Positions 6,681-27,949 of a DNA stretch of 47,897 bases are shown here, in pieces; position 1 is the stretch's first letter, and each line of letters starts with the position of its first letter. A program made the position numbers and the translations under genes. The DNA lies in NCBI GenBank assembly GCA_022340425.1, contig JAJDNY010000137.1:1-47897 (forward strand), given 5' to 3'. The DNA comes from Desulfobacteraceae bacterium (GTDB lineage: Bacteria > Desulfobacterota > Desulfobacteria > Desulfobacterales > JAABRJ01). Under the pieces are notes generated by a model that saw only the letters and a program-made list of their open reading frames with translations, was not told the origin of the DNA and searched no databases.

Positions 6681-6766
6681 CCAAAGCGTCAAAGCCAAAC
6701 CCCGAGTGATCGGGCGACGGAAAGCCGCGGGTCTTGCGCCACCAAGACAGCCGGGTTGCCTTTACG
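6681..6766 (+). ncRNA. GEMM riboswitch aptamer (c-di-GMP-I class)
   Basis: The segment has the GEMM layout: conserved CAAACC before a hairpin (CCCGA 6701-6705, GTGA tetraloop, TCGGG 6710-6714), then GACGGAAAGCC (consensus GACGCAAAGCC), then a second stem GTCTT 6731-6735 with AAGAC 6744-6748, then AGCCGGGTTGCC as in many Geobacter-type GEMM RNAs. P1 can form between CGT/AAAG (6687-6694) and CTTTACG (6760-6766). The G at 6694 aligns, by hand, with the G that selects c-di-GMP; cGAMP-selective relatives have A there. Two core positions differ from consensus in a complementary way (C6695 and G6720). It lies directly after the sigma-54 start site. Confidence 0.85.
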
Positions 6767-19861: not shown

Positions 19862-20938
19862 ATGCCATCCAATCTCCGCATCCAGGCTGGAGCGCGCGCG
19901 CTGGCCGTCCTGCGGGACGGGGGGCTGAAGCCGGAGACCGTCCAGGTGATCGCCGGTGCCGCCGGCGGCCCCAAGTGGCTGATTCTCAGCCACATCGACC
20001 GCTTTCTTTTCGGCGGCTGGAGCACCGGCCGCAGGATGCCGCTCTACCTGGTCGGATCCTCATCGGGGGCCTGGCGTTTCGCAGCCGCGGCCCAGGCCAA
20101 CCCCGTGGCCGCCATCGACCGGCTGGAACGGGCCTATATCGCCCAGCGCTACGATCCCCGCCCCGCCCCGGCCGCCGTGAGCCGCACGGCCAGGCAAATC
20201 CTGGAGAGCTTCATCACCCCCCGGAAGACCGCTCAGATACTGGACCACCCCTTTCTGCGGCTTAATTTTCTGGCCGTCCGCAGCCGCGGATCGCACCGTT
20301 GCCGACGGCCGGCTCGGATGTGGCTGCGGATGGCGGCGGCGACGACGCTTAACGCCTTCAAGCGGCGGTGGCTGGGTCTTCTTTTTGAACGGGTCCTGTT
20401 TCACGACCCCCGCGGCCTGCCGCCGTTCTATCCCATGCCCGGCTTTCCCCTGCGGACCGTTGCGCTTGAAAGACGCAACCTTGTCCCGGCATTGCGGGCC
20501 TCGGGCGCCATCCCCCTGGTTATGGCCGGCGTCGACGCCATTGCCGGCGCGCCCCCCGGTTGCTATTGGGACGGCGGGCTGATCGACTATCATCTGGACT
20601 TGCCTTACGATCACCTGGGCGACGGCCTGGTGCTCTTTCCCCACTACACCGACCGCCTGGTTCCCGGCTGGCTGGACAAACGCTTTACCCGCCGCCGGCC
20701 GGAGGCCGCCCACACCCGCAACGTCCTGTTGGTCAGCCCTTCGGCGACCTTTCTGCGCCGCCTGCCCCTGGGCAAAATCCCCGATCGGACCGACTTCGTC
20801 CGCTTCCGCGGCCACGATCGGGAGCGCATGGCCTACTGGCGCCGGACGGCTGACGCCGGCGCGGCCCTGGCCGAGGATCTGGCCGATCTTCTGACCGGCG
20901 GCCGGCTGCGATCCACAGCCACCCCATTGTCGGCCTGA
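19862..20938 (+). CDS. Patatin-like phospholipase family protein
   Basis: 358 residues. The patatin-type oxyanion Gly-rich segment is IAGAAGGPKWLIL, the nucleophile elbow is GSSSG (VGSSSGAWRFAAAA), and the catalytic Asp is in WDGGLIDYH (DGG/A motif), so the Ser-Asp dyad appears complete. It probably hydrolyses lipid acyl esters. Start at MPSNLRIQA after AAAGGAG; the upstream in-frame ATG lacks a good ribosome site. There is no signal peptide, so it is expected in the cytoplasm. It stands alone, with a terminator-like hairpin before it and a separate promoter for the next operon after it. Confidence 0.88.
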   Translation: MPSNLRIQAGARALAVLRDGGLKPETVQVIAGAAGGPKWLILSHIDRFLFGGWSTGRRMPLYLVGSSSGAWRFAAAAQANPVAAIDRLERAYIAQRYDPRPAPAAVSRTARQILESFITPRKTAQILDHPFLRLNFLAVRSRGSHRCRRPARMWLRMAAATTLNAFKRRWLGLLFERVLFHDPRGLPPFYPMPGFPLRTVALERRNLVPALRASGAIPLVMAGVDAIAGAPPGCYWDGGLIDYHLDLPYDHLGDGLVLFPHYTDRLVPGWLDKRFTRRRPEAAHTRNVLLVSPSATFLRRLPLGKIPDRTDFVRFRGHDRERMAYWRRTADAGAALAEDLADLLTGGRLRSTATPLSA

Positions 20939-20967: not shown

Positions 20968-20996
20968 TTGACAAACCCCGGGCGCTTGGGTAAGGG
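20968..20996 (+). promoter_or_regulatory. Candidate promoter of the ior operon leader
   Basis: A perfect TTGACA (20968-20973) is followed after 17 bp by TAAGGG, a poor -10 box. The start would be near 21003, giving a leader of about 250 nt that holds the Trp-rich peptide and the attenuator. The -10 assignment is uncertain. Confidence 0.4.
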
Positions 20997-21061
20997 AGAT
21001 AGCAGTTTAAAGGCAATCGGTGGGTCGAACAGCATCTGGGCGCCCGAACGCCGGGGACAAA

Positions 21062-21133
21062 ATGAAATACTTGCTCTGGTTCTGGTGGTGGCAGCCAACA
21101 GGAAGCGCGCCCGCCGGAATGAAACCCGAATAA
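21062..21133 (+). CDS. Trp/Phe-rich leader peptide of the ior operon
   Basis: A 23-codon reading frame, MKYLLWFWWWQPTGSAPAGM then KPE and TAA. Four Trp codons and one Phe codon fall within five positions (W6-F7-W8-W9-W10), with Tyr at position 3. GGGGA lies 5 nt before the ATG. Such a Trp run is extremely unlikely by chance and is the hallmark of ribosome-mediated transcription attenuation (as in trpL and pheL). It is followed by alternative hairpins and an intrinsic terminator just before iorA. The peptide itself probably has no function other than sensing charged tRNA-Trp (and perhaps tRNA-Phe). Confidence 0.85.
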   Translation: MKYLLWFWWWQPTGSAPAGMKPE

Positions 21134-21214
21134 ACGATTCGTCCTGGGCAGCTTCAGCGGTCGCCGCGAAGAAGGCCCACGACATATGGTGAACACGCTA
21201 AGCCGGGGCCTCTC
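21088..21214 (+). promoter_or_regulatory. Attenuator: mutually exclusive leader RNA pairings
   Basis: Hand folding gives a classical four-segment layout. Segment 1, GTGGCAGCC (21088-21096, covering the last Trp codons), can pair with segment 2, GGCCCAC (21174-21180). Segment 2 (GAAGGCCC, 21171-21178) can instead pair with segment 3, GGGCCTCTC (21206-21214). Segment 3 overlaps the 5' arm of the terminator. A strong helper hairpin CTTC-A-GCGG/CCGC-GAAG lies at 21152-21171. A ribosome stalled at the Trp codons masks segment 1, frees segment 2 to capture segment 3 and so prevents termination. Confidence 0.65.
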
Positions 21215-21234
21215 ACGAGCGCCCCGGCTTTTTT
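21201..21234 (+). terminator. Attenuator terminator before iorA
   Basis: AGCCGGGGC (21201-21209) pairs with GCCCCGGCT (21221-21229) across an 11-base loop, followed by six T at 21229-21234. It ends 20 bp before the iorA start codon, so it must be read through for the operon to be expressed. Confidence 0.88.
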
Positions 21235-21254
21235 ATGGACACGGGAGGTGTCAC

Positions 21255-23072
21255 GTGAACCGCAAAAATCTCGCCTTGGGCAACGAGGCCATCGCCCAGG
21301 GCCTGCTGGAAAACGGCTGCGCCATCGCCACCTCCTACCCCGGCACCCCGGCCTCGGAGATCCTCTCGTCGCTCGCCCGGCTGCAGCGCCAGACGGGCGC
21401 CGCCCTGCACGCCCAGTGGGCGGTCAACGAGAAGATCGCCTTCGAAATCGCCTATGCCGGCTGCCAGGCCGGGCTGCGCACCGCCGTCAGCATGAAGCAG
21501 GTGGGCTTGAACGTGGCCGCCGACCCGCTCATGAGCGCCGCCTACATGGGCACCAGCGGGGGGTTTGTGGTCATCAGCGCCGACGACCCGGGCCCGCACT
21601 CCTCCCAGACCGAGCAGGACAGTCGGTTGATGGCCATGATGGCCAAGATCCCGGTCCTCGACCCCGACTCCCCCGCCCAGGCCCGCGAGCTGGTGGCCGT
21701 GGCCTATGCGCTTTCCGAGGCGTTCCGCATCCCGGTGATGCTGCGGCCCACCACTCGGGTCTGCCACGCCCGCCAGGACATGGCGCCCCTCTCCCCACGG
21801 CCCCCCGAGCGCCAGCCGGCCTTTGAAAAAAATCCGGCCCGCTGGGCCGCGACCCCCAAGTTCCGCAACCAGTTGCACCACGAACTGGAGCGCAAACTGG
21901 CCGAGATCGCGATTTACCCGGCCACCGCACCACTCAAACTGAACGCGGCCGGTGAGACCCCCAAGGCTATTGTCGTCTCGGGCGTCGCCGCCGCCCACGC
22001 ACGCGAGATCATGGCCGATCTGGGGATCGGGGACCGGATCGCCCTCTACCAGGTGCGCCAGCCTTTCCCGCTGCACACCGACTTCACCGCCCAACTCCTG
22101 GCCGCCCACAGCGAGATCCTGGTGATCGAAGAGACCATGGGGGTGATCGAAATGCAGCTGGCCGACCGGCAGCGGGTACGGGGCAAGCTTTGCGGCGCGG
22201 TGTCCCGGGTGGGGGAGATCCTGCCGGAGGCGGTGGAAAACAGCATCCGCCAGTTTGCCGGGCTGCCCGGACGCGTGCCCAGCCTGCCGACCGTTCCCGG
22301 CCGGCGCCCCACCCTGTGCGCCGGCTGCCCCCACCGGGCCAGCTACTTCGCCATCAAGCGGGCCGCCCCACGGGCGATCTACACCGGCGACATCGGCTGC
22401 TACACCCTGGGGCTCAACCTGGGCGCGGTGGACACGGTGCTCTGCATGGGGGCTGCCATCAGCCAGGCGGCCGGTTTTTACCACGCCTTCAAAAACGCGC
22501 CCAAACCGCCGGACATCGTGGCCACCATCGGCGATTCGACCTTCTTTCACGCCGGCGTGCCGGCCCTGATTGACGCGGTGGTCCAGGGGGTCAAGTTCGT
22601 CCTGGTGATCCTGGACAACCGGACCACCGCCATGACCGGCAACCAGCCGACACCGGCAACCGGGACGGGCGCCATGGACGAGCCGCTCAACCGGGTGGCG
22701 ATCGAAAGCCTGGTGCGCGGCTGCGGCGTGAGCCGCTGCGAAACCGCCGATCCCTACCAACTCGAAGCCTTCACCCGCACGGTGCGCGCGGCGGTCAAAT
22801 ACAGCCGCAGCAGCGGGCCCGCGGTGGTGATCGCGCGCCACCCCTGCCTGCTGGACAAGCGCCGGCAGGAGGCGGCCGCCCTCGCCCAGGCGCCCACGGT
22901 GGGCGACGCCTGCGACGGCTGCGGCTACTGCCTCAAAAACTTCGAATGCCCGGCGATGGGCATGGATCCCGAAACCGAGCGGGTCCGGATCGACCCGCTG
23001 GTCTGCAGCGGCTGCGGCGTGTGCCTGACCATCTGCCCGCAGAAAGCCATCGCCGCCTGCGCCCGAGATTAG
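21255..23072 (+). CDS. iorA: Indolepyruvate:ferredoxin oxidoreductase, alpha subunit
   Basis: 605 residues from the GTG at 21255, preceded by GGGAGG with good spacing; the in-frame ATG upstream would have to be translated through the terminator. Domains: pyrimidine-binding part (IATSYPGTPASEILSSLARL), ThDP-binding part with GDIGCYTLG and GDSTFFHAGVP...LDN, and a C-terminal two-cluster ferredoxin (CDGCGYCLKNFECP, CSGCGVCLTICP). The enzyme interconverts arylpyruvates and arylacetyl-CoA with ferredoxin. In archaea and some anaerobes it also runs in reverse (reductive carboxylation) for aromatic amino acid synthesis, which the Trp attenuator favours here. It starts the iorAB-ligase-TRAP operon. 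Confidence 0.95.
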   Translation: MNRKNLALGNEAIAQGLLENGCAIATSYPGTPASEILSSLARLQRQTGAALHAQWAVNEKIAFEIAYAGCQAGLRTAVSMKQVGLNVAADPLMSAAYMGTSGGFVVISADDPGPHSSQTEQDSRLMAMMAKIPVLDPDSPAQARELVAVAYALSEAFRIPVMLRPTTRVCHARQDMAPLSPRPPERQPAFEKNPARWAATPKFRNQLHHELERKLAEIAIYPATAPLKLNAAGETPKAIVVSGVAAAHAREIMADLGIGDRIALYQVRQPFPLHTDFTAQLLAAHSEILVIEETMGVIEMQLADRQRVRGKLCGAVSRVGEILPEAVENSIRQFAGLPGRVPSLPTVPGRRPTLCAGCPHRASYFAIKRAAPRAIYTGDIGCYTLGLNLGAVDTVLCMGAAISQAAGFYHAFKNAPKPPDIVATIGDSTFFHAGVPALIDAVVQGVKFVLVILDNRTTAMTGNQPTPATGTGAMDEPLNRVAIESLVRGCGVSRCETADPYQLEAFTRTVRAAVKYSRSSGPAVVIARHPCLLDKRRQEAAALAQAPTVGDACDGCGYCLKNFECPAMGMDPETERVRIDPLVCSGCGVCLTICPQKAIAACARD

Positions 23073-23094: not shown

Positions 23095-23658
23095 ATGCAA
23101 GCGCCACTAAATCAACAAATCGTCATCAGCGGGGTGGGCGGCCAGGGGGTCCTGTTCGTGACCCGCCTGCTGGCCGAAGCGGCCATCGCCAAGGGCCTGG
23201 CGGTGCTCTCCTCGGAAACCCACGGCATGGCCCAGCGGGGCGGCACGGTGCTTTCGCACTTCAAGGTGGGAGACTTTTCAAGCCCGCTGATCCGCCCCGG
23301 GCACGCCGATCTGCTGCTGGCCTTGAAGGCCGAAGGCATCGCCCAGCACGCGGCCTTTCTCAAGCCCGACGGCTGGATCGCGGTCAACGCGGCGGCCGCC
23401 CCGGCCGACGGCGGCAACCGCTGCTGCCTGGCGCTCGACGCCGACCGTCTGGCCCGCGCCGTCGCCCCCAAAGCCGTCAACCTGATCCTGCTGGGTTTTG
23501 CCCTGGCCGCAAGCCCGGCCGAGAGCGAAAACCCACTTTTCTGTGATTTGGCGGAGATTCAAAGCGTGCTGCAAAAGCGCCTGGACGCCCGACCGCAGCT
23601 CCTGGAAAACGCTCTGGCGGCCCTTGCCGCCGGCGCCGCGGCCCCGGCGGCCGTATAA
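23095..23658 (+). CDS. iorB: Indolepyruvate:ferredoxin oxidoreductase, beta subunit
   Basis: 187 residues of the gamma-type 2-oxoacid:ferredoxin oxidoreductase domain: QIVISGVGGQGVLFVTRLLA at the N terminus and SSETHGMAQRGGTVLSH are characteristic of IorB. It binds IorA to form the active heterodimer. The ATG follows GGGAGACGC and lies 22 bp after iorA. The C-terminal tail is Ala-rich (LAAGAAAPAAV). Nothing appears missing compared with the family. Confidence 0.95.
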   Translation: MQAPLNQQIVISGVGGQGVLFVTRLLAEAAIAKGLAVLSSETHGMAQRGGTVLSHFKVGDFSSPLIRPGHADLLLALKAEGIAQHAAFLKPDGWIAVNAAAAPADGGNRCCLALDADRLARAVAPKAVNLILLGFALAASPAESENPLFCDLAEIQSVLQKRLDARPQLLENALAALAAGAAAPAAV

Positions 23659-23680: not shown

Positions 23681-24982
23681 ATGCCGTTCATTCCCCAAGA
23701 GCTGCCCCCGGAGAGGCTGCAGCGCCTTCAACTGGAGGGCCTCAAGTGGACCGTGGCCCACGCCTTCAACAACTCGGCGGCCTACCGCCGCAAATTCGAT
23801 GCCGCCGGGATCACCCCGGCGGACATCCGCACCCTGGCCGATATTGCTCATCTGCCGTTTACCGACAAGGAGGACCTGCAGGCGGAGTACCCCTTTCCGC
23901 TGCGGGCGGTGCCCTTTGAGGAGATCACCCGCATTCACGCCTCCTCGGGCACCACCGGCAAGCGCAAGGTGCTCTGCTACACCCAGCGGGACGTGGACGT
24001 CTGGGCCGAGCTTTTCGCGCGCTGCTATGAACTGGCCGGGCTGACCCGCCGCGACCGCGTTCAGATCGCGGTTGGCTACGGGCTGTGGACCGCCGGGGCC
24101 GGCTTTCAGGCGGGCTGCGAGCGCTTCGGCGCGATGGCGATCCCGCTGGGGCCGGCCAACGCCGAGATGCACTGCGAGATGCTGGTGGACATGCAAGCGA
24201 CCGTCTTCTGTTCCACCGCCTCGATGGCGCTCTTGATGGCCGAAGAAATCCAGGCGCGCAACCTCGGCGGCAAAATCCGCCTGGAAACGATCATCCTCGG
24301 GGCCGAGCGCCACAGCGACGCCATGCGCGCCCGCATCAAGGCCCTCACGGGCGTCGAACACATCTTCGACATCTACGGGCTGACCGAACTCTACGGGCCC
24401 GGCACGGGCCTGGACTGCCGCTGCCACAGCGGCATCCACTACTGGGCGGATCACTTCATCTTCGAAATCATCGACCCGGCGACCCTGCAACCTGTGCCCG
24501 CCGGCGCCCAGGGGGAACTGGTGGTCACGACCCTGCGCAAGGAGGCCAGCCCCCTGATCCGCTACCGGACCCACGACCTGACCCGCCTCATCGAGGGCCC
24601 CTGCCCCTGCGGCGTCCCCTTTCCGCGCCACGACCGGATCATGGGCCGCAGCGACGACATGTTCATCTACCGGGCGGTTAACATCTACCCCAGCCAGATC
24701 GATCACGTCCTCAGCCGGGTTGGGGGCACCGGCAGCGAGTTCCAGATCCACCTGATGAGCCGTGAAAGCGGCCGCGACCGAATGGTCATCAAGGTCGAAC
24801 GCGGCCAGGAGGCCGGCCCCACCGACGATGCGCACCTGGCCGAGCGGATCGCCACCGAGATCCGGCGCAAGGTGCTGGTGCGCAGCGACGTGGAAATCGT
24901 CGCCTACGGCAGCCTGCCGCGCACCCAGCGCAAAAGCCGGCGGGTGTTCGACCACCGCAACGGCGACGATCCCGGCGCCTGA
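23681..24982 (+). CDS. Phenylacetate-CoA ligase family (arylacetate-CoA ligase)
   Basis: 433 residues, the size of PaaK-type AMP-forming ligases. Motifs: P-loop HASSGTTGKRKVLCYTQRD, YGLTELYGPGTGLDCRC (acyl-adenylate motif), YRTHDLTRL and, near the C terminus, RTQRKSRRVFDHR containing the catalytic Lys region. It activates phenylacetate, indoleacetate or a similar acid to its CoA thioester with ATP. AAGGAG precedes the ATG at 23681. Being between iorB and a TRAP transporter, it would supply arylacetyl-CoA for reductive carboxylation by IorAB, or use exported-acid chemistry in the opposite direction. Confidence 0.93.
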   Translation: MPFIPQELPPERLQRLQLEGLKWTVAHAFNNSAAYRRKFDAAGITPADIRTLADIAHLPFTDKEDLQAEYPFPLRAVPFEEITRIHASSGTTGKRKVLCYTQRDVDVWAELFARCYELAGLTRRDRVQIAVGYGLWTAGAGFQAGCERFGAMAIPLGPANAEMHCEMLVDMQATVFCSTASMALLMAEEIQARNLGGKIRLETIILGAERHSDAMRARIKALTGVEHIFDIYGLTELYGPGTGLDCRCHSGIHYWADHFIFEIIDPATLQPVPAGAQGELVVTTLRKEASPLIRYRTHDLTRLIEGPCPCGVPFPRHDRIMGRSDDMFIYRAVNIYPSQIDHVLSRVGGTGSEFQIHLMSRESGRDRMVIKVERGQEAGPTDDAHLAERIATEIRRKVLVRSDVEIVAYGSLPRTQRKSRRVFDHRNGDDPGA

Positions 24983-25060: not shown

Positions 25061-26083
25061 ATGGCTTCACGCTTCAAACTCATTCGATGGGGCATCCTGC
25101 CGGCGCTCGCAGCCTTCTTCAGCCTGGCGGCGCCCGCTGCCGGCGCCGCTCCGGTCACCCTCAGCTACGCCAACTTCCCGCCGGCGCCGACCTTCCCCTG
25201 CGTCCAGATGGAGCGCTGGAAGCAGGAGGTGGAAAGCCGCACCCGGGGGCAGGTCCAGATCGACACCTTTCCCGGCGGCACCCTGCTGGACGCCAAGGAC
25301 ATGATGGACGGCGTGATCGCCGGGCAGGCGGATATCGGCTGTCTCTGCATGGCCTACCAGCCCGGCCGCTTCGTGGTCACCAACGCCACCAGCCTGCCGC
25401 TGGGGATCCCCAACGCCCGGGTGGGCAGCCGGGTGCTCTGGGAACTCTACCAGAAATACCAGCCCCAGGAGTTCGCTGCCGTCAAGGTGCTCACGATGTT
25501 CACCACGGCACCGGCCAACATCATGTCCAAGAAGCCGGTGCGCAGCCTGGCGGACCTCAAGGGGCTCGACCTGCGCGCTTCCGGCGGTGCAGCCGAGATT
25601 CTCAAGGCCTGGGGGGCCAACCAGGTGGGCATGCCCATGTCGGCCACGCCGGAGGCCCTGCAAAAAGGCGTGGTGCAGGGGCTGTTCTCCTCGCTGGAGG
25701 TGATGAAGGACCTCAAGTTCGCCGAAATCTGCAAGTACGCCACCCTCACCGACACCGCGATCTACCCCTTTGCTGTGGTGATGAACCTGGAGCGCTGGAA
25801 CGCCCTGCCGCCGGAGGTGCAACAGGTCATGGACGACCTGCGGCTGGAGCAGGCCGAGTGGACCGGGAGCTATATGGACAACCATGTCCAGGAGGCGCTG
25901 ACCTGGTCCCGCGACACTCACCAGGTGGAGGTCATCACCCTCTCGGAAACCGAGAAGGCCGATTGGAACCGCCCGCTGCAGCCGATCACCGACGCCTGGG
26001 TGCAGACCAACGGGGCCAAGGACTTTCCGGCCGCGGCGATCGTCGGCGACATCCAGGCCCTGATCCAGCAGCACACCCGCTAG
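25061..26083 (+). CDS. TRAP transporter substrate-binding protein, DctP family (putative aryl acid)
   Basis: 340 residues with a signal peptide (MASRFKLIRWGILPALAAFF, cleavage after the AAPAAGA region). DctP features: RTRGQVQIDTFPGGTLLD, MMDGVIAGQADIG, the ligand-binding Arg in LKGLDLRASGG, and TPEALQKGVVQGLFSSLEV. AAGGAGGAGG lies before the ATG. It captures a carboxylate in the periplasm. Because it is in one operon with an arylacetate-type CoA ligase and IorAB, I infer an arylacetate or related aromatic acid as ligand; the sequence alone cannot prove it. It is flanked by two strong intercistronic hairpins. Confidence 0.93.
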   Translation: MASRFKLIRWGILPALAAFFSLAAPAAGAAPVTLSYANFPPAPTFPCVQMERWKQEVESRTRGQVQIDTFPGGTLLDAKDMMDGVIAGQADIGCLCMAYQPGRFVVTNATSLPLGIPNARVGSRVLWELYQKYQPQEFAAVKVLTMFTTAPANIMSKKPVRSLADLKGLDLRASGGAAEILKAWGANQVGMPMSATPEALQKGVVQGLFSSLEVMKDLKFAEICKYATLTDTAIYPFAVVMNLERWNALPPEVQQVMDDLRLEQAEWTGSYMDNHVQEALTWSRDTHQVEVITLSETEKADWNRPLQPITDAWVQTNGAKDFPAAAIVGDIQALIQQHTR

Positions 26084-26153: not shown

Positions 26154-26648
26154 ATGGAAAAAGCGCTCGCAAAACTGATCGGTTGGATCAACCGCTGGCT
26201 GGTTCTCTCGGCCGGGGTGTTTCTGGTGGGCATGATCCTGCTGACCTGCGCCAATATCGGGCTGCGGATCGCCTGGCTGCCCCTGCGGGGGACCTTCGAG
26301 CTGATGGGCTTCTTCGGCGCGCTGGTGACCGCCTTGAGCCTGGCCTACACCCAGGCCCAGCGCGGCCACATCGCCGTGGACGTCCTGATCAACACCTTCC
26401 CGCCGGTGGTGCGGCGCCTGCTGGGTCTCATCAACAGCGCCGCATGCGCCGGCTTTTTTGCCCTGGTTGCCTGGCAGCTGGCCGAGAAGGCCGCGGTCCT
26501 GCGGCAAACCGGAGAGCTCACCGAAACGCTGCGGGTGCCCTACTATCCTTTCACCTACGGGGTGGCGGCGGGCTGCGCGATGCTGGCGGTGGTGTTTTTG
26601 GCGGAGCTCCTCAAGGGGCTGCGCCCCATCCGGGGGGACCGCCGATGA
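26154..26648 (+). CDS. TRAP transporter small permease, DctQ family
   Basis: 164 residues with four hydrophobic helices. The conserved DctQ loop is TQAQRGHIAVDVLINTF (G-H-I-x-V-D) between helices 2 and 3. It starts 70 bp after dctP, past the hairpin, and its stop overlaps the dctM start as ATGA, so the two permease subunits are translationally coupled. Function by family is secure. Confidence 0.93.
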   Translation: MEKALAKLIGWINRWLVLSAGVFLVGMILLTCANIGLRIAWLPLRGTFELMGFFGALVTALSLAYTQAQRGHIAVDVLINTFPPVVRRLLGLINSAACAGFFALVAWQLAEKAAVLRQTGELTETLRVPYYPFTYGVAAGCAMLAVVFLAELLKGLRPIRGDRR

Positions 26649-27949
26649 GCCTTACCTGGGTGGGGATATCCGGCATCGGGATCCTGATGTTCATCCTCTT
26701 TTTTCTGGGCATGCCGGTGGGCTTTGCCATGGCCATGGTGGGTTTCGGCGGCTTCTGCTACGTGGTCTCGCTCAAGGCCGGACTCAACATGGTGGGCGCG
26801 GTCTTTTGGACGACCTTTTCGCAGTACGGCTTGACGGTGATCCCGCTGTTTATCTTCATGGGCCAGATCGCCTATTATTCGGGCGTCAACGAGAAGCTCT
26901 ACACCGCGGCCTACCGCTGGGTGGGGCATATCCGCGGCGGGTTGGCCATGGCCACCGTGCTGGCCTGCTCGGCCTTTTCCGCCATCTGCGGCTCCAACGC
27001 GGCCACCGCCGCGACCATGTCCACGGTGGCGCTGCCCGAGATGCGGAAATACCGTTACAACCCGAAGCTCAGCACCGGGGCCGTGGCCTGCGGCTCCACC
27101 CTGGGGGTGGTGATTCCGCCCAGCGTGGTGCTGATCGTGATCGGACTTTCCACCGAGCAGTCGATTGCGCGGCTCTTTTACGGGGGGATCGGGGCGGGCA
27201 TCGCCCTGACGCTGTTTCTGCTGGGGACCGTTTTTCTAATGTGCCGGCGCCACCCCGACTGGGGCCCGGTGGGCCCGCGCTTCAGCCGCGGCGAGCGGAT
27301 CGCGGCGCTTTCCGGGGCGCTGGAAATGGCGGTCCTCTTTCTGCTGGTGATGCTGGGCCTATATTTCGGGGCCTTCACGCCGGCCGAGGCCGGCGCTGCC
27401 GGCTCGTTTTTCGCCGTGGCGATCAGCCTGGGCCGGGGGCTGCTCTCCTGGCAGGGCTTTTCTTACGCCGTCAAGGACACCCTGCGGATCTCCTGCATGG
27501 TGATCGCCATCGTGGCCGGCGCCGTGATCTTCGGCCGCTTCCTGACGGTCACGCGCATCCCGTTTGAGATTGCCGCCTGGGTGGTGGGCCTGCCGGTGCC
27601 CAAGGTGACCGTGATCGGCATCATCTTCGTCATCTACATCATCGGCGGCGCCGTGATGGACGCCCTGGCCCTGCTGCTGATCACCATCCCGATCTTCTTT
27701 CCGGTTGCCACCCAGCTGGGCTACGACCCCATCTGGTTCGCGGTCACGATCACGGTGATCACCACTCTGGGGGCCGTCACCCCGCCGGTGGGGGCGACCA
27801 CCTACGTGGTCGGCGCCATGGCCAAGGACGTGCCCCTGGAGGACGTCTTCAAGGGCACCGCCTACTTCCTGCCGGCCTACGTCCTCTGCATCGTTCTATT
27901 GATGCTCTTTCCGCAGATCGTGACCTTTCTTCCGCGCCTGATCCCCTGA
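26645..27949 (+). CDS. TRAP transporter large permease, DctM family
   Basis: 434 residues, the normal length. Characteristic parts: MPVGFAMAMVGFGGFCYV, STVALPEMRKYRYNPKL, CGSTLGVVIPPSVVLIVIGL, FGAFTPAEAGAAGSFFAV and TPPVGATTYVVGAMAKD. The start at 26645 lies in an ATGA overlap with dctQ; longer in-frame readings lie within dctQ and are not real. It is the last gene of the Trp-attenuated operon and completes the Na+-driven uptake system. Confidence 0.95.
   Translation: MSLTWVGISGIGILMFILFFLGMPVGFAMAMVGFGGFCYVVSLKAGLNMVGAVFWTTFSQYGLTVIPLFIFMGQIAYYSGVNEKLYTAAYRWVGHIRGGLAMATVLACSAFSAICGSNAATAATMSTVALPEMRKYRYNPKLSTGAVACGSTLGVVIPPSVVLIVIGLSTEQSIARLFYGGIGAGIALTLFLLGTVFLMCRRHPDWGPVGPRFSRGERIAALSGALEMAVLFLLVMLGLYFGAFTPAEAGAAGSFFAVAISLGRGLLSWQGFSYAVKDTLRISCMVIAIVAGAVIFGRFLTVTRIPFEIAAWVVGLPVPKVTVIGIIFVIYIIGGAVMDALALLLITIPIFFPVATQLGYDPIWFAVTITVITTLGAVTPPVGATTYVVGAMAKDVPLEDVFKGTAYFLPAYVLCIVLLMLFPQIVTFLPRLIP

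Follow-up and report, generated by a model that had tools for sequence, protein, structure and literature searches.

The window, by which is meant the whole stretch of 47,897 nucleotides that was analysed, belongs to a Desulfobacteraceae genome of 4.0 Mb in 209 contigs, whose nearest relative in the collection is the Desulfobacteraceae bin L085 (iorA 91% identical). Its forward strand carries iorA and iorB, encoding the two subunits of an indolepyruvate oxidoreductase (IOR), followed by a gene for a PaaK-type CoA ligase and the TRAP transporter genes dctP, dctQ and dctM, the last of which ends at 27949 (Table 1). The products of iorA (625 bits against a cut-off of 650.9 for TIGR03336) and iorB (220 bits against 227) are full-length relatives that score slightly below the equivalog cut-offs. 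The start codon of iorA is GTG (21255), with a Shine-Dalgarno sequence GGGAGG at 21243-21248. DctP is 51% identical to Desal_3247 (4n6d), slightly nearer than Dde_0634 (4nap), to which it is 48% identical over 291 aligned residues with the same fold; 4pgn and 4pgp score nearly identically to 4nap, and further structural neighbours bind aromatic acids. The VIA search that ranked these structures used a structure model of only moderate confidence (pLDDT 71), so its ranking was used only jointly with the sequence match. Indoleacetate is a reported ligand of Dde_0634, a TRAP binding protein from Desulfovibrio (Oleidesulfovibrio) alaskensis (PMC9543091, PMC9973260); the DctP of the window resembles Dde_0634 in sequence and fold, and its own ligand is inferred. 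A c-di-GMP-I riboswitch aptamer is also present in the window (6684-6763, + strand, 59.6 bits).

Table 1. Features of the ior operon and its leader in the window
Feature	Positions	Strand	Evidence
Promoter	20968-20996	+	TTGACA 20968-20973, 17-nt spacer, -10 TAAGGG 20991-20996
Leader-peptide Shine-Dalgarno GGGGA	21053-21057	+	Sequence
Leader peptide MKYLLWFWWWQPTGSAPAGMKPE, 23 codons	21062-21133	+	Sequence; same-genus leader MKFLLWFWWWQATGSAPTGMTPE; 31 related leaders
RNA segment 1 (Trp codons)	21080-21092	+	1:2 duplex -16.3 kcal/mol
RNA segment 2, partner of 1 or 3	21101-21119	+	2:3 duplex -15.1 kcal/mol
RNA segment 3	21141-21155	+	3:4 duplex -14.7 kcal/mol
RNA segment 4, partner of 3 or 5	21168-21183	+	4:5 duplex -15.6 kcal/mol
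Intrinsic terminator, RNA segments 5 and 6, six T	21200-21234	+	5:6 duplex -21.9 kcal/mol; hairpin -24.7 kcal/mol
iorA, indolepyruvate oxidoreductase alpha subunit	21255-23072	+	TIGR03336, E 9.6e-188
iorB, beta subunit	23095-23658	+	NF004916, E 2.4e-65
PaaK-type aryl-CoA ligase	23681-24982	+	TIGR02155, E 8.5e-121, below cut-off; phenylacetate-CoA ligases of known structure
TRAP substrate-binding protein DctP	25061-26083	+	Pfam DctP; nearest solved relatives Desal_3247, Dde_0634
TRAP small permease DctQ	26154-26648	+	Pfam DctQ, E 2.5e-22
TRAP large permease DctM	26645-27949	+	TIGR00786, E 4.3e-84, on longer frame 26183-27949

The upstream neighbour is a patatin-like gene with its stop at 20938. 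The region singled out in the earlier note begins at 20968, exactly at the TTGACA of a putative promoter, the -10 hexamer of which is weak and poorly matched. The leader open reading frame runs from an ATG at 21062 to a TAA at 21131-21133, with Trp codons at 21077, 21083, 21086 and 21089 (positions 6, 8, 9 and 10), and so satisfies, like the leaders of relatives, the criterion of a short reading frame with tandem Trp codons, its translation being inferred. When the sequence was read again, the 23-codon leader with the run Trp-Phe-Trp-Trp-Trp and the terminator with six T at 21201-21234 directly 5' of iorA both held to the codon and coordinate; calling the Shine-Dalgarno sequence of the leader good was too generous, because it is only a mediocre GGGGA. 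The terminator consists of AGCCGGGGC and GCCCCGGCT, joined by nine perfect pairs, and TTTTTT at 21229-21234, and ends 20 nt 5' of the iorA start, so that an intrinsic terminator precedes the first gene of the operon, as expected of a ribosome-mediated attenuator. The leader RNA folds 2.8 standard deviations better than its shuffles. A second genomic match to TGGTTYTGGTGGTGG, on contig C50, is antisense to a long open reading frame and was dropped.

Trp-rich leaders and a six-segment RNA upstream of iorA

Orthologues of iorA that are 60-91% identical, together with some more distant ones, were taken from many genomes and collapsed to 125 distinct upstream regions, and a Trp-rich short open reading frame lies just 5' of iorA in 31 of these, the window counted. 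The same-genus sister has the leader MKFLLWFWWWQATGSAPTGMTPE and the same terminator as the window; other related leaders are MKPTCWWWWWQRP, MKHIFWWWWYKP, MVTFWWWWRIG, MFWCWWWQPRSKPAHLQ and MGSRILNLWWWWWGKKRGGVCP. Most of the 31 have TTGACA in a similar position, 54-134 nt 5' of the leader, and the sole constant feature across all of them is the Trp run, Phe and Tyr being variable. By a strict test (a short reading frame with at least three Trp within six residues), 24 of 93 close orthologues are positive, whereas dinucleotide shuffles give about 0.4 on average and the opposite strand gives none. One locus, L182, passed this test and was left outside the 31, its peptide and missing terminator looking like chance. 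The IorA proteins of Syntrophaceae and other members of the phylum (L134, L135, L306-L309, L314) are distant (about 53-58% identical). In this group the Trp run of the leader is followed by a conserved tail, GGEVCP or GGVCP, at the end of the peptide, and there is a single terminator.

The comparison of homologous operons that the earlier note called for yielded Trp-run leaders, covarying alternative helices and terminators, so that its main claim passes this check; the element is not present in every homologous operon, and whole clades are without it. Among the IorA loci compared, the element is absent from large clades, including all Desulfosarcina; the clade L215-L231 (family code f36) has the full iorAB-ligase-TRAP order without a Trp leader, and is possibly under other regulation or catabolic in role. 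On the IorA tree, leader presence requires 16 changes. No convincing element was found at the paralogous IorA locus of the window genome itself (C26, L059).

The conserved anatomy is one of six RNA segments that pair as 1:2, 3:4 and 5:6 (off) or as 2:3 and 4:5 (on). Their order is fixed in relatives: segment 1 contains the Trp codons, segment 2 lies at the leader stop codon (typically GAAGCTTGCTCACCACC), segments 3 (AGAGCCGTGAGNGGCTTC) and 4 (GAAGNGGCTCATGGCTCTTTT) follow, and segments 5 and 6 form the second hairpin with its U-run. In an alignment of 24 leaders, with the partner strand slid by one to three columns as the control, 89.1% of cells are paired in the off structure (34-63% when slid) and 84.7% in the on structure (34-48% when slid), with 12 and 9 pairs, respectively, changed on both sides; the covariation score of each structure exceeds that of every shuffle. 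The helices that share segment 3 are both well kept, 2:3 having 90.7% of cells paired and changes on both sides in 6 of 12 pairs, and 3:4 having 89.4% and 7 of 16. The clearest sign comes from columns 51, 117 and 150, in segments 2, 3 and 4, which change jointly as U-A-U or C-G-C: a single base is constrained by two alternative partners. The 24 leaders hence meet the criterion of a mutually exclusive terminator and antiterminator, both conserved and covarying, and also that of a his-type layout, in which an extra hairpin pair relays through 2:3 and 4:5.

The alternative pairings that had been named for the window fared unequally: that of 21171-21178 with 21206-21214 is real (-11.5 kcal/mol) and corresponds to the 4:5 antiterminator, and that of 21088-21096 with 21174-21180 is weak (-7.4 kcal/mol) and is not the conserved one. 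The 4:5 helix of the window is shifted in register by about three columns from the consensus, and for this reason adds nothing to the column-wise covariation. In most relatives U-runs follow both 3:4 and 5:6, making two tandem terminators; L105 and L159 have one only after 3:4, and the window, its sister and several others only after 5:6, with none at segment 4 of the window.

For a ribosome stalled in the Trp run, the window leader from about a dozen nucleotides past the ribosome up to segment 5 folds into 2:3 with 4:5. When the ribosome has instead reached the stop codon, RNA made as far as segment 4 adopts 3:4 and the complete leader 3:4 with 5:6; a transcript that extends only to 21214 still has 4:5 as its predicted minimum. 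Once the whole terminator is present, the thermodynamic minimum is 3:4 with 5:6 in both ribosome states. At equilibrium, the starved state has segment 5 more sequestered than the replete state for 21 of 22 leaders (mean 0.73 versus 0.37) and a weaker 3:4 helix for 21 of 24 (mean 0.53 versus 0.77), often slightly. The corresponding starved and replete values for the window are 0.74 versus 0.72 and 0.37 versus 0.50, a difference so small that the switch must depend on the order of folding during transcription.

Could a frame that is never translated and a plain terminator of the preceding gene have come together here by accident? The terminator could serve the patatin-like gene, the stop of which is not far upstream; conservation, covariation, the shuffles and the reuse of the element before Trp genes (see below) contradict such a coincidence, which is refuted by the comparative data and retains practically no credence.

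In its short leader with tandem Trp codons, its exclusive 1:2, 2:3 and 3:4 helices and its intrinsic terminator, the element is like the trp attenuators of Proteobacteria and Actinobacteria (Escherichia coli trpL; Corynebacterium and Streptomyces trp, PMC1262725), and in some relatives it even stands before trpE. It differs from them in its target here, iorAB with the CoA ligase and TRAP genes, and in the additional segments 5 and 6, which carry the U-tract terminator. The his attenuator alternates between the pairings A:B, C:D and E:F on the one hand and B:C and D:E on the other. Like the present element, the his attenuator of Salmonella and E. coli places an additional hairpin between the codon-run hairpin and the terminator (PMC1183508); here, however, the codons are for Trp rather than His, and the 3:4 hairpin of most relatives has a U-run and is terminator-like. 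No Rfam family reaches its gathering score over the element, in the window or at related loci, and the Rfam model finds no T-box (tRNA-Trp) in either.

Other genes behind the same element

The 24 ior leaders were used to build a covariance model (R1), with which 389 genomes of the order and 395 genomes of the phylum were searched. Within the order, 47 matches have E < 1e-9, which by coordinates and downstream genes fall before iorA (28, including the training set), a CoA ligase gene (10), a TrpB-like gene (6), dctP (1) and trpE (1), or at a contig border (1). Those of the weaker matches, to about 1e-5, that were opened precede trpE operons, DctP-DctQ-DctM-ligase genes or a DAHP synthase gene, or lie too near a contig end; those weaker still were mostly outside the target survey. 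In the phylum the identifiable targets are iorA, trpE, trpD, TrpB-like genes and the DAHP synthase gene. No target with an identifiable downstream gene was found outside aromatic and Trp supply, which is the reason for regarding the element as a Trp-starvation switch. It recurs, as far as can be judged by model matches and gene order, in dozens of related sulfate reducers and also before ordinary Trp-making genes.

TrpB-like genes lie behind the element at L277, L280, L282, L283, L284, L315, L320, L324, L326 and L330; the family was confirmed with NCBIfam model TIGR01415, those at L277, L280 and L283-L284 being called by resemblance to a scanned member. The role of the TrpB-like family in Trp supply has often been left open. 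At L275 a single element heads a 458-codon TrpB-sized gene (so called from size and place only), iorA, iorB, the ligase gene and the TRAP genes. At L302 and L327 the element precedes a gene for 3-deoxy-7-phosphoheptulonate (DAHP) synthase, confirmed with TIGR01361, and this arrangement is read from the downstream gene as Trp control at the entry of the shikimate pathway.

The trpE gene of the window genome (L060 9010-9300, - strand) has a 36-codon leader with two Trp, MNVKSLHPHAIFDNRQVPCGCWRIPHWRCADVFVSA, a terminator CCGCGGCACCCTCCTGGAGGCCGCGG-TTTTTTTT, and TTGACA upstream. Its R1 score is low (13.4 bits, E 0.013), so it is kept apart from the element described here and regarded as a possible divergent attenuator. 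No element was found upstream of trpB or of the TrpB-like gene in this genome.

These targets bear on what the leader senses. The signal could be aromatic amino acids generally (Phe, Tyr and Trp), for the leader of the window has one Phe and one Tyr codon, Phe or Tyr occurs near the run in some relatives, and the IOR and the ligase probably take several aryl substrates; yet only the Trp run is constant across the 31 leaders and the trpE and TrpB-like targets indicate Trp, which makes a general aromatic signal improbable. Much less credible still is an arrest peptide of the TnaC type that responds to an excess of Trp: Trp is indeed abundant in the leader, and other work has assigned the downstream genes to aromatic amino acid catabolism, but conservation of the peptide is limited to the Trp run and does not extend to its surroundings, intrinsic terminators and exclusive helices are present, and the same leaders precede biosynthetic genes.

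The layout of the element, its conservation in relatives, the covariation of its helices and its recurrence ahead of Trp genes were observed. It is very probably a ribosome-mediated transcription attenuator sensing charged tRNA-Trp, which would turn on a salvage operon when Trp is short; that transcription terminates there and responds to Trp, which substrate is used and which way the enzymes work are inferred. Ribosome-mediated Trp attenuation of an indolepyruvate oxidoreductase operon, as the earlier note proposed, has the support of the leaders of relatives, the covarying helices and the terminators, in the absence of expression data. When Trp is plentiful, the ribosome is predicted to pass the Trp codons and reach the stop codon, 3:4 would form, segment 5 would be left free for segment 6, and the 5:6 terminator would end transcription 20 nt 5' of iorA. 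When Trp is short, the ribosome would stall on the Trp run, allowing 2:3 to form and segment 4 to capture segment 5; with no terminator, the iorAB-ligase-TRAP genes would be transcribed. The open-licence literature yielded no description of ior attenuation or of this element (subscription literature was outside the search). The kind of attenuator is old, and the ior operon as its target is new as far as is known from that literature.

Direction of the pathway

Gene content alone cannot give the direction in which an IOR runs; the enzyme is reversible and is usually annotated under the breakdown of peptides or amino acids. A switch for Trp starvation that also stands before trpE and TrpB-like genes is an independent clue that in this clade the enzyme works towards synthesis. 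To be off when Trp is plentiful is textbook behaviour before a Trp-making operon and would be perverse before a Trp-degrading one. Because the operon is a member of a Trp-supply regulon it is probably anabolic, and the biosynthetic direction is considered most likely, both the direction and the activity of IorAB on indolepyruvate being inferred.

In Methanococcus maripaludis an IOR is reported to take part in making aromatic amino acids from aryl acids (PMC3462420, PMC4162585); the present system is alike in the proposed use of IOR for synthesis, and differs in that it comes from a bacterium, is joined to a TRAP importer and is placed under Trp attenuation. The logic of the off state, the relatives of DctP and the M. 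maripaludis IOR together make a route of import, CoA activation, reductive carboxylation and transamination the most likely one. The TRAP transporter would import indoleacetate and perhaps other arylacetates, the CoA ligase would activate the imported arylacetate to its CoA thioester, the IOR, working in reverse, would carboxylate the thioester reductively to indolepyruvate, and a transaminase would convert indolepyruvate to Trp. The window genome possesses trpEGDCF and a full-length trpB and is therefore not a plain Trp auxotroph, so salvage would stand beside de novo synthesis.

The attenuator may be real and the operon nevertheless catabolic, converting aromatic amino acids or arylpyruvates to arylacetyl-CoA with a gain of energy, the Trp control serving some other purpose. 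In Desulfococcus multivorans, proteomics connects growth on phenylpyruvate and phenylacetate with an IorAB, a TRAP system and a CoA ligase, and the IOR was assigned to phenylpyruvate breakdown (PMC5109826); a clade with the same gene order and no Trp leader also fits this reading. However, the element would be off at plentiful Trp, just when an operon for Trp degradation ought to be on, the remaining targets of the element are trpE, TrpB-like and DAHP synthase genes, and one operon joins a TrpB-like gene with iorAB, so that catabolism is an unlikely role for the attenuated operons, though one to be kept in mind. Leaderless ior operons may be catabolic, as the proteomics suggests for the IOR of D. 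multivorans.

On the anabolic reading, it is fairly likely that Desulfobacterota possess a Trp regulon governed by one recurrent six-segment attenuator with tandem terminators, by which de novo synthesis is tied to indoleacetate salvage. The covariance model could then be used to annotate TRAP transporters and CoA ligases by their membership in the regulon. The reading predicts an indoleacetate-to-Trp salvage route in anaerobic bacteria, and if the regulon is as proposed, sulfate reducers of marine and sediment habitats would consume auxin-type acids as precursors of Trp.
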